Assembly: GCA_027364495.1 (NCBI GenBank)
Contig: DAHXPE010000434.1
Coordinates: 1-5,048, forward strand
Length of the DNA stretch: 5,048 bases
From: Candidatus Heimdallarchaeota archaeon
GTDB taxonomy: Archaea; Asgardarchaeota; Heimdallarchaeia; Hodarchaeales; LC-3
Direction of reading: 5' to 3'
In this document: positions 845-4,812 of the stretch, one piece after another
How positions within the stretch are numbered: the first letter of the stretch is position 1
Layout: every line of letters starts with the position of its first letter
Notes under the pieces: model-generated
Database searches by the model: none
What the model was told of the DNA's origin: nothing
The model's input: the letters and a program-made list of their open reading frames with translations, nothing else
Translations under genes and position numbers: made by a program

Positions 845-852
845 TATATAAA
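845..852 (+). promoter_or_regulatory. TATA-like promoter of the cyclase-UbiA operon
   Basis: TATATAAA is centred near 848.5. Archaeal transcription usually starts about 25 bases after the box centre, which falls at about 873, exactly at the TTG/GTG start of the cyclase, so the message may be leaderless. Purines expected for a BRE element just upstream are absent, because the box follows a T-run. Read as a bacterial promoter instead, TTGAAA at 821-826 and TATATA at 845-850 have an 18-base spacer. The position supports a promoter under either reading. Confidence 0.5.
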
Positions 853-869
853 CCACTAATTACATAAGG

Positions 870-2426
870 TTGGTGATACTTATTTCTTTCGATATTTCCA
901 ACTCTACTAATTTTTTGACTTCTTCTGATGTCTCTTCCCTTTTTGACACTATTTCTGGTCTTAAGTCTTCTCTATTTTCTATGCACCTATCAGGGTCTCA
1001 ATATTTTTCCGTTTATGATACTGCTTTCCTTTCTCTCATTCATGATAATTCTGGTAAGCCTATTTTTACTAACTCGCTTAAATTTCTTTTTTCTTCAGTC
1101 AATCCTGACGGTTCTTGGGGTAATCCAAACATCCTTTCTGATAATATCCTTTCCACTCTTGCCTCTATGCATGCTCTCCAGCAATCTCATCTTTATAACA
1201 CTCCTATTGTTCAAAACATTCTTGCTAAAGCTGAGAAATTCATTTTTGACAATTACAATCGAATCGCTCAAGAAAATTTTTTTACTGTTGGTCTTGAGTT
1301 CCTTCTTCCCAATCTTTTACTTAAAACAGGTGTAAATCTCTTTGATCATCCTATGACTAAAAAACTTGAGACTTATCAACAGAAAAAACTTTCTGTTCTT
1401 CCGCTTGATTATATTCAGCAGATAAAATCTCCTATGCTCTTTGCTCTAGAGTCTCTTGACTCTCATTGTATTACTAGTAACCTTGACCACTTTATTGAAG
1501 CCAATGGTAGTATTGCTACTTCTCCTGCTACAACTGCTTGGTATCTCAACTACAATCCGAAATCTGATAAAATCCCAGAAATGATTCGCTACCTTTCTGA
1601 CCTCTATAATCCCCAGACCGGTGGCGTTCCTTCTTTTGCTGATTATTCTCTTATGAATATTCCTTTTGTCTTATATCCACTTTTTAAAGCAAGAATTCCT
1701 TATCCAAATTATAATACTTTATTACGTTATGTCTATGATCATTGGACTCCCACGGGTGTTGGCCATTCTTCCTGTTTCCCCATGACTGATGCTGACGATA
1801 CTGCTCTCAGTCTTCTTTTATTAAATAAATTTTATTTTATTCCCGATAACAGTGAAAAATTCGATGTTTTACTTCGTTACAAAAGGCAAGATTATTTCAT
1901 TACCTATCCTTTTGAGATCGGAACTTCCAACATGGTCAATCTCCATGTCTTGGATATGCTTTTAGAGACCAATGCTTCCAAATGGAATAGAGAATTTAAT
2001 ATTGACCAATTAGTCTCTTTTATTGCCAAACAGATCTCACCTGAGTATGGTATCGGTGGCGATAAATATCATTACTCTCCTTACTGTCAGAACTGTCATG
2101 CAGTACTGACGTTATCAAAAAATTACCCCTCTCTTAGTAGAAAACTTGTAGATTGGTTATTTGCCAATCAGGATATTAACGGTTTATGGGGTATTACTGG
2201 ACCTACTGTTGAAGAGACCGCTTATGCTGTTTTGGCACTTTGTTATTATCATATCCATGCTGAAAAATTGGATTTGACTATTCTGAATAATGCCATTGAT
2301 TATCTTGTTGCTGATCATGGTCCCTATCCAAATCTCTGGCTTTCAAAAGTTGCTTATACTCCTATTGAGACTGTTAAAGCTCATATCCTTGCTGCACTTG
2401 AACTCTACCATCAGGCTGTGTTTTAA
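870..2426 (+). CDS. Class II diterpene cyclase (copalyl diphosphate synthase type)
   Basis: Predicted soluble enzyme of 518 residues that should protonate GGPP and fold it into a cyclic diterpenyl diphosphate, such as a copalyl-type product. The decisive motif is DADD at 307-310, the DxDD general acid of class II cyclases, within a well-matching stretch (WTPTGVG at 292-298, then DADDTA). Other family landmarks are SVYDTA (47-52), DGSWG (80-84, QW-like), GSIATSPATTAWYL (213-226), SPY (403-405), NGLWG plus EETAYAVLAL (437-457), and a closing YTPIETVKAHILAAL (496-510). There is no DDxxD or NSE-type class I domain, so the diphosphate should stay on the product. The length matches full-length bacterial beta-gamma cyclases of about 500 residues. 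The start is uncertain: TTG at 870 is the most upstream choice (in-frame stop at 849), GTG at 873 fits a leaderless start, and no early in-frame ATG exists. The first 110 codons are about 82% pyrimidine-ending, unlike the transporter gene. The family call is firm; the product stereochemistry is unknown. Confidence 0.92.
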   Translation: MVILISFDISNSTNFLTSSDVSSLFDTISGLKSSLFSMHLSGSQYFSVYDTAFLSLIHDNSGKPIFTNSLKFLFSSVNPDGSWGNPNILSDNILSTLASMHALQQSHLYNTPIVQNILAKAEKFIFDNYNRIAQENFFTVGLEFLLPNLLLKTGVNLFDHPMTKKLETYQQKKLSVLPLDYIQQIKSPMLFALESLDSHCITSNLDHFIEANGSIATSPATTAWYLNYNPKSDKIPEMIRYLSDLYNPQTGGVPSFADYSLMNIPFVLYPLFKARIPYPNYNTLLRYVYDHWTPTGVGHSSCFPMTDADDTALSLLLLNKFYFIPDNSEKFDVLLRYKRQDYFITYPFEIGTSNMVNLHVLDMLLETNASKWNREFNIDQLVSFIAKQISPEYGIGGDKYHYSPYCQNCHAVLTLSKNYPSLSRKLVDWLFANQDINGLWGITGPTVEETAYAVLALCYYHIHAEKLDLTILNNAIDYLVADHGPYPNLWLSKVAYTPIETVKAHILAALELYHQAVF

Positions 2427-2428
2427 TC

Positions 2429-3385
2429 ATGTTTTTTCAGAACAATATAGCCCGATCAGTTGATTTCGAGAGGTTACTCCAATTTTTCCACTTTCTTCGA
2501 CCCCATCAAATGATTTACCAATTGACTTTAGTCACTATTATTTTATTTTTTTCACCAGCAGTTTCAATGTTTCAACTGTTTTCTGCTTTTGTTATGATAA
2601 TTCTAATTACACCATCTTTTTTGCTTGTGCAGGACGTTTTAGGTAAGAAGGATGACGAAAAAGTTGGTCAAAAGAGAATATTATTTTCCAAACGAATCAA
2701 TAAGGTCTTTTTTTATAGTTCGTTAACCATTTTAGTTTTTATCCTGATCCTCAATAATGTTTGGGCTTTGATGTCATACATCCTGTTATTTTTTTTTACG
2801 CTTTCTTACGCTGTCATGAAGCATTATCGTAGGATGGTTTTATCGTATACATTCAGGTATCTCAGTTCTGTGTGGACGTTTTTATTATACCTTTTCATTC
2901 TCGTTGTATCTATCAATGAGCTTTTTTTTGCTCTTCTTATCTTCATTTCTCTTCTAGACCTTGTTGGTAATATTGCCGGTGATATTCGTGATTGCAAAAA
3001 AGATTCACTTGCAGGTGTCAAAACTCTCGCGACCACTAAGGGAATGACCTTTACGTTATTAATTATGTTTTTTTTCGTTTTATTATCTTTTTCCATTCTT
3101 TATTTTTTAATTTCTAATTATTTATTTCTTCTTTTACTATGTATCAATTTAATTCCATTTTTTATTCTAATTAAAATTCCACTTCAATTCTCTCACGGAA
3201 TTTTTCACCTTTCGAAGATTTTTAATTTCCTTTCGATCTCTTTTATCTTGTCTGGTATATCTTTTATTCCATTTTTTTTTGCTTTAACTTGTATAATGTG
3301 TCTTTGGTCTATTTCATATTTTCTTTATTTATATTATCCAGATAATGTAAATATTCATTTTATAAAGGTTGAATTCTATATATAA
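2429..3385 (+). CDS. UbiA-superfamily membrane prenyltransferase (or terpene cyclase)
   Basis: Integral membrane protein of 318 residues with about eight or nine hydrophobic helices, the usual UbiA size. UbiA enzymes move a prenyl group from its diphosphate to an acceptor, using two Asp-rich cytoplasmic loops that hold Mg-diphosphate. The second loop is textbook: D185, D188, D192, G196, then T199-L200. The first loop (68-91) aligns with NDxxDxxxD followed by RPxxSGxIS but reads QDVLGKKDD and then RILFSKRIN: Asn is Gln68, the second Asp is Gly72, while D69, D76 and R83 remain. ATG at 2429 lies two bases after the cyclase stop, with no clear ribosome site, so the two genes are surely co-transcribed and probably translationally coupled. 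Likely role (inference): it uses the cyclase product, either attaching it to an acceptor such as a quinone ring, a glycerol phosphate or another small molecule, or acting as a UbiA-type terpene cyclase. The gene carries several T7-T9 runs, yet its frame is intact across them. Confidence 0.88.
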   Translation: MFFQNNIARSVDFERLLQFFHFLRPHQMIYQLTLVTIILFFSPAVSMFQLFSAFVMIILITPSFLLVQDVLGKKDDEKVGQKRILFSKRINKVFFYSSLTILVFILILNNVWALMSYILLFFFTLSYAVMKHYRRMVLSYTFRYLSSVWTFLLYLFILVVSINELFFALLIFISLLDLVGNIAGDIRDCKKDSLAGVKTLATTKGMTFTLLIMFFFVLLSFSILYFLISNYLFLLLLCINLIPFFILIKIPLQFSHGIFHLSKIFNFLSISFILSGISFIPFFFALTCIMCLWSISYFLYLYYPDNVNIHFIKVEFYI

Positions 3386-3507: not shown

Positions 3508-4812
3508 TTAACTGGTTATTTGTACTACTTTATGATAAAAAAATATAAAGACTAGGCTTAAAAGACTAAGACAAAATAAAAATTCTGCTCCAGCTAATAA
3601 ACCACCTCCTTCTATAATGAAACCAAATAAAGGAAGCAATAAAATTTCAATAATGTTAGCAATTGAAGGCATTAAACTGTAAACACTGTTTCTAATATCA
3701 GAGGGGATCTCTTTTAAAAGAATTCGCTGAAAAGAAGTTTTTACAATGAGACTAATGACACCAATAGACATTAATAAAATTAATATACCTATGATTCCAC
3801 CTAAAAGATTAAAAGAATTGTGAATAGGAATGAAGACAAAAAGAACTATTAGACTTGGAAAGAAAACAATATAATAAAGAAGATTAAGTAAACCTACATG
3901 TTGATCACCAATTTTCTTCGTATATTTAGTAGAATATAATCTTATAAAAAAAGTAGCTAAAAGGAGAATACCTCTAAAGAACCCAACACCAAGATCTGAA
4001 CCAGTATAAGCGAAATAAAAGGGAATTAACATCAGTTCGACCCAAAGCCCTTCAATTACAAAGATGCTTACTCTCGCCATAATTAAAAGAAAGGATTCTT
4101 TTGATGAAATGAAAAATTTTATTCCACCTTTAAAATAAAACAAAATGCTCTTCTTTTTATCTTCTAATATATCATCTACCGCCTTATAATCTTTCAAAAA
4201 AGAAATAACTATGGGAATGTACAAAAGAAAAAGGAGACTTACCATTAAAAATAAGATATTTCTTGACAACAATACCGACAAAAATCCTCCTCCAATGATT
4301 GAAATTGAATTAACCATATTAGAAAGAGTCATCATCCTCTGATAAACAAAGCCATAGATTTTCCTATCTGAATCTACCTGGGCAACTGTTTTTTTATAGT
4401 TATTGTCTAAATAACTTTCAAAAGCACCACTTATTTGACCTACTCCTAGACCAAATGAAATAGAAGCTAAAAAATAGATTTGCAAACTATTATATTGTGA
4501 AATAATGAAATAAGAAAAACCCATAAAGATACAAGCTAACGCAATAATATTTCTTTGACCAATATAATCTGATAAACTACCAGTTGGGTAATCAGTCAAA
4601 AGTTGTACCAGAAGGGTGACAGCTGATAATATTCCCGCATAGTAATAACCCCAGTATTCGATATAATTTAAAAGGATATAAGATTGACCGAGTAATGCAA
4701 TGAAGGAGAAAATAAAATACAATAAAAAGTATTTTCTTATAAGTTTCTGTGTCTGTTTTGGTAAATCCAAAATGCCTAAAAAATTGTTTAAGATACCCAT
4801 CCGAAAGACCAT
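3508..4812 (-). CDS. Major facilitator superfamily (MFS) transporter
   Basis: Membrane carrier of 434 residues with about 12 predicted helices, six on each side of a polar loop at about 207-241. The loop after helix 2 carries MFS motif A: G78, D82, G85 and R87 in TGSLSDYIGQR, preceded by DYP at 74-76. SGAFESYLDN (128-137) and the second-half IPSDIRNSVYSL (369-380) are also typical of the superfamily. The family does not reveal the substrate; drug, sugar or metabolite transport is possible, probably as an efflux-like carrier. The gene runs convergently to the terpenoid pair and has different codon habits (TTA for Leu, AGA for Arg, about 56% pyrimidine-ending codons in the first 80), so I see no firm link to that pathway. 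ATG at 4812 gives the full frame; a second ATG at 4800 (residue 5) is equally possible, and neither has a good ribosome site. Wording such as DYPTG, IGQR and LDNNYK resembles MFS proteins I associate with Asgard archaea, from memory only. Confidence 0.88.
   Translation of the reverse strand: MVFRMGILNNFLGILDLPKQTQKLIRKYFLLYFIFSFIALLGQSYILLNYIEYWGYYYAGILSAVTLLVQLLTDYPTGSLSDYIGQRNIIALACIFMGFSYFIISQYNSLQIYFLASISFGLGVGQISGAFESYLDNNYKKTVAQVDSDRKIYGFVYQRMMTLSNMVNSISIIGGGFLSVLLSRNILFLMVSLLFLLYIPIVISFLKDYKAVDDILEDKKKSILFYFKGGIKFFISSKESFLLIMARVSIFVIEGLWVELMLIPFYFAYTGSDLGVGFFRGILLLATFFIRLYSTKYTKKIGDQHVGLLNLLYYIVFFPSLIVLFVFIPIHNSFNLLGGIIGILILLMSIGVISLIVKTSFQRILLKEIPSDIRNSVYSLMPSIANIIEILLLPLFGFIIEGGGLLAGAEFLFCLSLLSLVFIFFYHKVVQITS

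Follow-up and report, generated by a model that had tools for sequence, protein, structure and literature searches.

A class II diterpene cyclase gene adjoining a UbiA-superfamily gene in a Heimdallarchaeota contig: a candidate two-step diterpenoid pathway

We analysed a stretch of 5048 bases from a Candidatus Heimdallarchaeota archaeon (contig DAHXPE010000434.1; GC 30 per cent; hereafter the window), in which a gene for a class II diterpene cyclase is followed almost immediately by a gene for a UbiA-superfamily membrane protein (Table 1). We propose that they make up a single operon whose products carry out a diterpenoid pathway of two steps. In the first step, for which the case is strong, the soluble cyclase would protonate geranylgeranyl diphosphate (GGPP) via the aspartate of its DADD motif to give a bicyclic C20 diphosphate. 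In the second, the membrane UbiA protein would bind this cyclised diphosphate through Mg2+ on its motif aspartates, of which D76, D185, D188, and D192 are the likeliest to hold the metal, and would ionise it. As the outcome, we consider transfer to an acceptor very slightly less likely than further cyclisation, elimination, or water capture. Use of the cyclised diphosphate by the UbiA protein, whatever the outcome, is probable, because of the adjacency of the genes, the recurrence of the pair, the archaeal clade of the cyclase, and the Rv3378c-like partner of a sister cyclase. That it acts on this diphosphate like a terpene synthase is a more tentative proposal, for which we would give somewhat less than even chances.

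Identity of the two proteins

An earlier note on this DNA had described a DxDD cyclase without a class I domain and a UbiA-superfamily protein starting two bases further on. This description was borne out by the DADD motif (13 of 13 rows), by the AlphaFold2 (AF2) models, and by the relatives of both proteins. The upstream gene is confirmed, from sequence comparison and modelled structure, as encoding a stand-alone class II diterpene cyclase. Its product scored 15.2 bits against the Pfam family SQHop_cyclase_C, below the cut-off of 26.1, and had no match in NCBIfam at E 1. A phmmer search of solved structures found the class II cyclases 6vpt (E 2.7e-37) and 9b99 (2.3e-27), and a profile built from twenty cyclase rows reached 6vpt at 7.7e-98. 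The AF2 model (predicted local distance difference test score, pLDDT, 89.5) had 6vpt as its top Foldseek match (E 5.5e-22, template modelling (TM) scores 0.78/0.83), with Tpn2 and PtmT2 next. It fits best to 6vpt, 7xkx, and 5bp8, with a TM score of 0.78 compared with 0.58–0.63 for full-length squalene-hopene cyclases. Model and matches together show a two-domain alpha-barrel fold with no class I domain.

The roles of the activating histidine, the diphosphate-contacting lysine, and the base tyrosine in class II cyclases are described in excerpts of PMC9814783, and putative counterparts of each are present in the window (Table 1). We located the counterparts of Rv3377c A475 and Y479 by counting along the profile alignment with 6vpt. 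According to the same excerpts, Asp at the first of these positions goes with labdane products, and Gly or Ala with clerodane or halimane products; Asp is present there in 84.1 per cent of the Tpn2/copalyl diphosphate synthase family. The window's clade carries Ser in all twelve rows that reach the position (P0001–P0011 and P0014; P0015 ends before it). As this is Ser and not Asp, a rearranged bicycle of halimane or clerodane type would be more likely than plain copalyl diphosphate, a guess made from one residue. In three related cyclases (P0016–P0018) DADN replaces DADD and the base-tyrosine region is altered, so their chemistry may have changed.

The protein encoded at 2429–3385 has a UbiA fold. 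Its open reading frame matched Pfam at E 4.1e-8 with 33.3 bits, just under the cut-off of 34.2, and precomputed PF01040 assignments cover thirteen of its nineteen rows, including its own. The AF2 model (pLDDT 85.5) found UbiA structures as its best structural matches. No solved UbiA relative was detected by sequence at E 1 or by profile at E 10.

Table 1. Positions of the two genes and of the sequence features discussed in the text.
Feature	Position	Strand	Basis
TATATAAA, TATA-box-like	845..852	+	about 25 bases 5' of the start codons; from sequence, promoter role putative
Class II diterpene cyclase gene	870..2426	+	518 aa from TTG 870, 517 aa from GTG 873; phmmer, profile, AF2 model, Foldseek
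DADD general-acid motif	1788..1799	+	13/13 rows (P0001–P0011, P0014, P0015), to 40% identity
H359 (window numbering), His of NLHVLD	1944..1946	+	putative counterpart of the DxDD-activating His; assigned by position
K399, Lys of GGDKYH	2064..2066	+	putative counterpart of Tpn2 K383, diphosphate contact; assigned by position
S-K-V-A-Y (S492–Y496)	2343..2357	+	Ser at the labdane/clerodane/halimane switch, then base Tyr Y496
Gap between cyclase stop and UbiA start	2427..2428	+	two bases
UbiA-superfamily intramembrane enzyme gene	2429..3385	+	ATG start, 318 aa; Pfam, relatives, AF2 model
Motif I, QDxxGxxDD (Q68–D76), Gly72 for the usual second Asp	2630..2656	+	alignment with relatives and references
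Motif II, GDxRDxxKD (G184–D192), extra Asp185 before DxxxD	2978..3004	+	alignment with relatives and references
HGIFH, late helix, H256 and H260 near-invariant in the UbiA clade	3194..3208	+	clade alignment

Recurrence of the pair and partners of related cyclases

In the protein search, 7995 candidates were scored for the cyclase and 43 rows were recovered, its own included, two of which share a C-terminal piece only. Among genomic contigs the best 80 of 182 cyclase relatives were kept, with a top identity of 32 per cent; plasmids held relatives in 32 records (each below 60 per cent identity), and viral contigs held none. The same search for the UbiA protein gave nineteen rows, its own included and some of them fragments, and a profile search added two fragments only. 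There was no UbiA match in plasmids at E 0.01, and viral models gave a single match at E <=0.001, to a giant-virus UbiA.

Five cyclase and UbiA cluster pairs have longest contigs of identical size (20687 bases for the window's own pair, and 3152, 3768, 14810, and 55056 bases), and their sources agree. Random jitter of the sizes produced a mean of 0.08 such pairs, with a maximum of three in 20000 draws. Judged from these sizes and not from a reading of the DNA, the same pair seems to occur on four other contigs. If the contigs are indeed the same, cyclase and UbiA are necessarily close to each other on those of 3152 and 3768 bases.

Other counts weigh against a firm coupling of the two genes. 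The cyclase P0006, on a contig of 53038 bases, has no UbiA row of that size, and among UbiA rows on contigs of at least 8 kb only three of seven (the window's own included) have a matching cyclase row. Four more distant cyclases on contigs above 10 kb (P0014, P0017, P0020, P0021) likewise lack a matching UbiA row, and no UbiA gene stands beside the cyclase in any of six other archaeal genomes, within the stretches covered. The pairing is not universal within the clade. Recurrence of the pair in other genomes, which the earlier note put forward as a check, is supported by the five equal contig sizes and not by the other archaeal genomes or the exceptions within the clade. The imperfect pairing also favours a rival in which the UbiA gene encodes an independent prenyltransferase that takes GGPP or another linear donor, as a paralogue of digeranylgeranylglyceryl phosphate (DGGGP) synthase or a quinone enzyme would, and shares no more than a promoter with the cyclase.

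P0006, which is a nearly full cyclase, has the same longest-contig size as P0034, a protein with Ig-like repeats that ends in about 57 residues of cyclase C-terminus at 71 per cent identity; a fusion, a fragment, or an assembly join would account for it.

Outside the clade, a search of neighbouring genes with a hidden Markov model (HMM; flanks of up to 10 kb, many shorter) placed a UbiA gene near the cyclase in three of eighty genome loci (L030, L068, L075), in none of ten plasmid loci, and in none of ten loci of a Streptomyces set. The model contains L030's own protein, so the score of that locus is inflated, and two matches at E 0.03–0.1 were not counted. The loci L068 (10007–13688) and L075, both from Amycolatopsis, carry operons of a class II cyclase, a cytochrome P450, and a UbiA gene, and their UbiA proteins are candidate UbiA-type diterpene synthases. 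Ten of the 32 plasmid cyclase records were opened; six have an annotated terpene synthase nearby and three have no annotation. In one of the ten, an unannotated neighbour of the cyclase carries what we take, by eye, to be class I-like motifs.

The named near relatives of the window's cyclase come from Hodarchaeales (P0014, 40 per cent identity) and Heimdallarchaeota (P0015, 48 per cent). In a tree of 39 rows it falls inside a group of seventeen (support 98/99), made up of thirteen rows set as archaeal beforehand, six of them from its own close clade, and four others. The Asgard rows join first with the cyclase of G242, from a Thermoplasmatota set (95/88), which is the nearest sister outside the Asgard group. 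An archaeal origin of the cyclase is therefore likely on this tree. Few of the other archaeal genomes sampled have a class II cyclase: four of 292 in one phylum and two of 300 in another (E 1e-20, centres included).

The sister cyclase of G242 (L154:7789–10355) provides the strongest comparison in favour of coupling. It is followed by a gene for a PF01255 protein, with the first ATG 29 bases past the cyclase stop, whose best solved relatives are Rv3378c structures (E ~4e-13). The same gene follows a cyclase piece in G248 (L155:1–1800). The two copies are nearly identical (308 of 315 residues), and we therefore counted them as one observation. Excerpts of PMC9814783 describe Rv3378c as an enzyme of adenosine prenylation, with equivalents accompanying many Rv3377c homologues, and G242 and G248 would thus carry the terpene-nucleoside gene pair in an archaeal form. 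Beside the window's cyclase the neighbour is the UbiA gene and not an Rv3378c-like one. On that footing, the place behind the cyclase would have been filled twice in this archaeal group, by unrelated enzymes of allylic diphosphates, as would be expected of a UbiA protein that takes the cyclised product. Neither an Rv3378c-like nor a UbiA partner was present among the scanned neighbours in four other archaeal loci (L009, L013, L157, and L153, where one neighbour was scanned and nothing was recognised). In two of these (L013:9917–12915 and L157:656–4617) the cyclases adjoin genes resembling phosphoenolpyruvate synthase (phosphohistidine domain; N-terminal and mobile domains of pyruvate, phosphate dikinase), and major facilitator superfamily (MFS) genes adjoin the cyclases in L009 and L157.

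Placement, motifs, and possible roles of the UbiA protein

The best tree puts the UbiA protein outside all labelled housekeeping clades, on a very long stem (3.9, support 100/100). This supports the reading of the earlier note, although approximately unbiased (AU) tests do not reject joining the protein with several of these clades. Groupings with MenA (p 0.062), with heme O synthases (p 0.082), and with DGGGP-synthase-like rows (p 0.059, two rows) were all retained, as was one with the two Amycolatopsis UbiA candidates, whose function is unproven (p 0.176). Joining it with 4-hydroxybenzoate rows was disfavoured at p 0.022, without correction for the five tests. That several housekeeping clades stay unrejected tells against a UbiA enzyme dedicated to the cyclised product, and the MenA, heme O, and DGGGP-synthase-like groupings speak for the linear-donor prenyltransferase. 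We nevertheless hold that rival to be improbable, given the position outside all labelled clades in the best tree, the disfavoured 4-hydroxybenzoate grouping, and the loss of the canonical motif I aspartate in every aligned row.

The motifs themselves are well conserved over rows of 45–58 per cent identity. The canonical motif I, NDxxDxxxD, is absent, and QDxxGxxDD takes its place in all sixteen aligned rows. Position 72 is Gly in each of the sixteen (the window's included), whereas among 32 references it is Asp in thirty, Glu in one, and Gly in one. The canonical DxxxD of motif II is present, with D188 and D192 in all sixteen rows, and Asp185, three residues before this pair, occurs in 16 of 16 clade rows against 3 of 32 references. 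Across the nineteen UbiA rows, some of them fragments, 44 columns are invariant, and six of these are aspartates of the two motifs. Because these six are invariant, the clade is unlikely to consist of dead enzymes. The loss of one canonical metal-binding aspartate and the Pfam score slightly below cut-off would suit a non-catalytic membrane anchor or helper of the cyclase, or a neighbour with no functional relation to it. In view of the invariant columns and the recurrence of the pair, we give this very little credence. A late transmembrane helix carries a further stretch, SHGIFHLxK, that is near-invariant across the clade.

The same two changes recall the fungal UbiA-type terpene synthases, for which excerpts of PMC9835599 give the signature NxxxG/AxxxD and QDxxDxxxD and report that each of four Asp-to-Ala changes abolished the product. 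In motif I the window's protein agrees in the Gly and the last Asp and has Gln for the first Asn; in motif II DxxDxxxD agrees and Gly replaces the first Gln. One reading is that a UbiA-type terpene synthase arose within the Asgard archaea themselves. It would be an old and isolated UbiA branch whose substrate is made by an archaeal class II cyclase, and its loss of an aspartate from motif I and gain of one in motif II would parallel the fungal changes but be independent of them. We regard this reading as less likely than not, and two comparisons caution against resting much on the motif match. The two Amycolatopsis UbiA proteins that adjoin class II cyclases retain the motif I aspartate. The only reference with both changes, a Chloroflexi protein (L112), has as neighbours an AroB-like gene and a gene for UbiG (266 bits, cut-off 103); its contig also carries a class II cyclase (L004), at a great distance from it. 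As L112 has both changes outside a terpene context and the Amycolatopsis proteins keep the aspartate, the motif changes mark an unusual UbiA protein and are not diagnostic of a terpene synthase. On account of L112 we lowered our estimates slightly for a terpene-synthase-like action and for the separately evolved synthase, and raised that for a transferase. L112 itself (L158:6684–7586, minus strand, G004; NxxxGxxxD and DxxDxxxD) belongs to a row of genes that also encodes UbiG, an AroB-like protein, a xylose-isomerase-like protein, and histidinol dehydrogenase, and that may serve an unusual pathway to a quinone or an aromatic compound.

UbiA proteins are in general mostly transferases, and the window's protein could well be one too, moving the cyclic diterpenyl group onto a glycerol phosphate lipid, a quinone precursor, a nucleoside, or another small molecule; we rate this as possible, on the lower side of even. 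A cyclised ether lipid is retained only as a variant of it. The nearest profile and fold matches point this way, being archaeal DGGGP-synthase-like proteins; hhalign gave 63.7 against four such rows, which themselves fall below the NCBI cut-offs. NCBIfam adds a weak match to geranylgeranylglycerol-phosphate geranylgeranyltransferase (E 3.4e-4, 20.3 bits against 278). The methyltransferase gene UbiG beside L112 is in keeping with a transferase, as is the Rv3378c-like second gene of the sister cyclase, from a family known for adenosine prenylation (excerpts of PMC9814783). The resemblance of the motifs to those of fungal terpene synthases argues the other way, and none of the three genes in the window would supply an acceptor.

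Locus context and known systems

With TATATAAA about 25 bases 5' of the cyclase start codons, a leaderless message beginning near 870/873 is plausible. The 869 positions before the cyclase (GC 23 per cent) contain no open reading frame of at least 60 aa, and Rfam gave no match at gathering scores, these positions included. Beyond the UbiA gene an MFS transporter gene (3508–4812, minus strand) converges on the pair. We considered an exporter common to archaeal cyclases and rejected it, as the window's MFS protein is scarcely similar to the two that adjoin cyclases (E 0.25 and 0.001, over short stretches).

A class II cyclase working with a UbiA-type synthase is already known in actinobacteria, and the archaeal version looks separately evolved. 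In the platencin pathway ent-copalyl diphosphate is converted to ent-atiserene by a UbiA-type synthase (excerpts of PMC10301674), identified as PtmT1 in those of PMC10847714, and a likely UbiA cyclase was counted in 14 per cent of 342 actinobacterial ent-copalyl diphosphate synthase clusters (excerpts of PMC9814783). As with PtmT2 and its UbiA-type partner, a bicyclic C20 diphosphate from the class II cyclase would pass to a UbiA-fold enzyme that makes the final skeleton. Unlike the actinobacterial pair, the window's cyclase has Ser at the switch position and no P450 gene accompanies it in the window; an Amycolatopsis UbiA taken as a stand-in for PtmT1 shows no significant pairwise similarity to the window's protein (E 3.4). 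The Rv3377c/Rv3378c pathway is also alike in that the window's cyclase has no closer solved relative than Rv3377c (6vpt) and the second enzyme uses the cyclised diphosphate, but that enzyme has PF01255-type relatives and the window's is a UbiA protein. Compared by published signature, the fungal enzymes Fma-TC, EriG, and Tps1A/Tps2A share Gly or Ala for the motif I Asp and DxxDxxxD in motif II; they differ in the first residues of both motifs, and Tps1A/Tps2A and Fma-TC take farnesyl diphosphate. Archaeal DGGGP synthase (7bpu, 6m31) differs in that the window's protein is without canonical NDxxDxxxD, and identity in the structural alignments is 16–18 per cent. A literature search (top-ranked papers, with few subscription journals) found no report of a class II cyclase and UbiA pair in archaea, and the available portions of the Asgard-related papers PMC12872458, PMC13036324, and PMC7472256 hold nothing on such a pair.

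If the proposal is correct, the archaeal relatives of eukaryotes would gain a pathway to cyclic diterpenoids, as a two-gene cassette that could be expressed in Escherichia coli and in which the effect of the motif I Asp-to-Gly change becomes testable. Should the UbiA protein prove to be a transferase, it would make an archaeal terpenyl conjugate of a new kind. If instead the Asgard archaea have their own UbiA-type synthase, then together with the Rv3378c-like partner in Thermoplasmatota, archaeal cyclic-diterpenoid pathways would consist of one cyclase lineage combined with exchangeable second enzymes.

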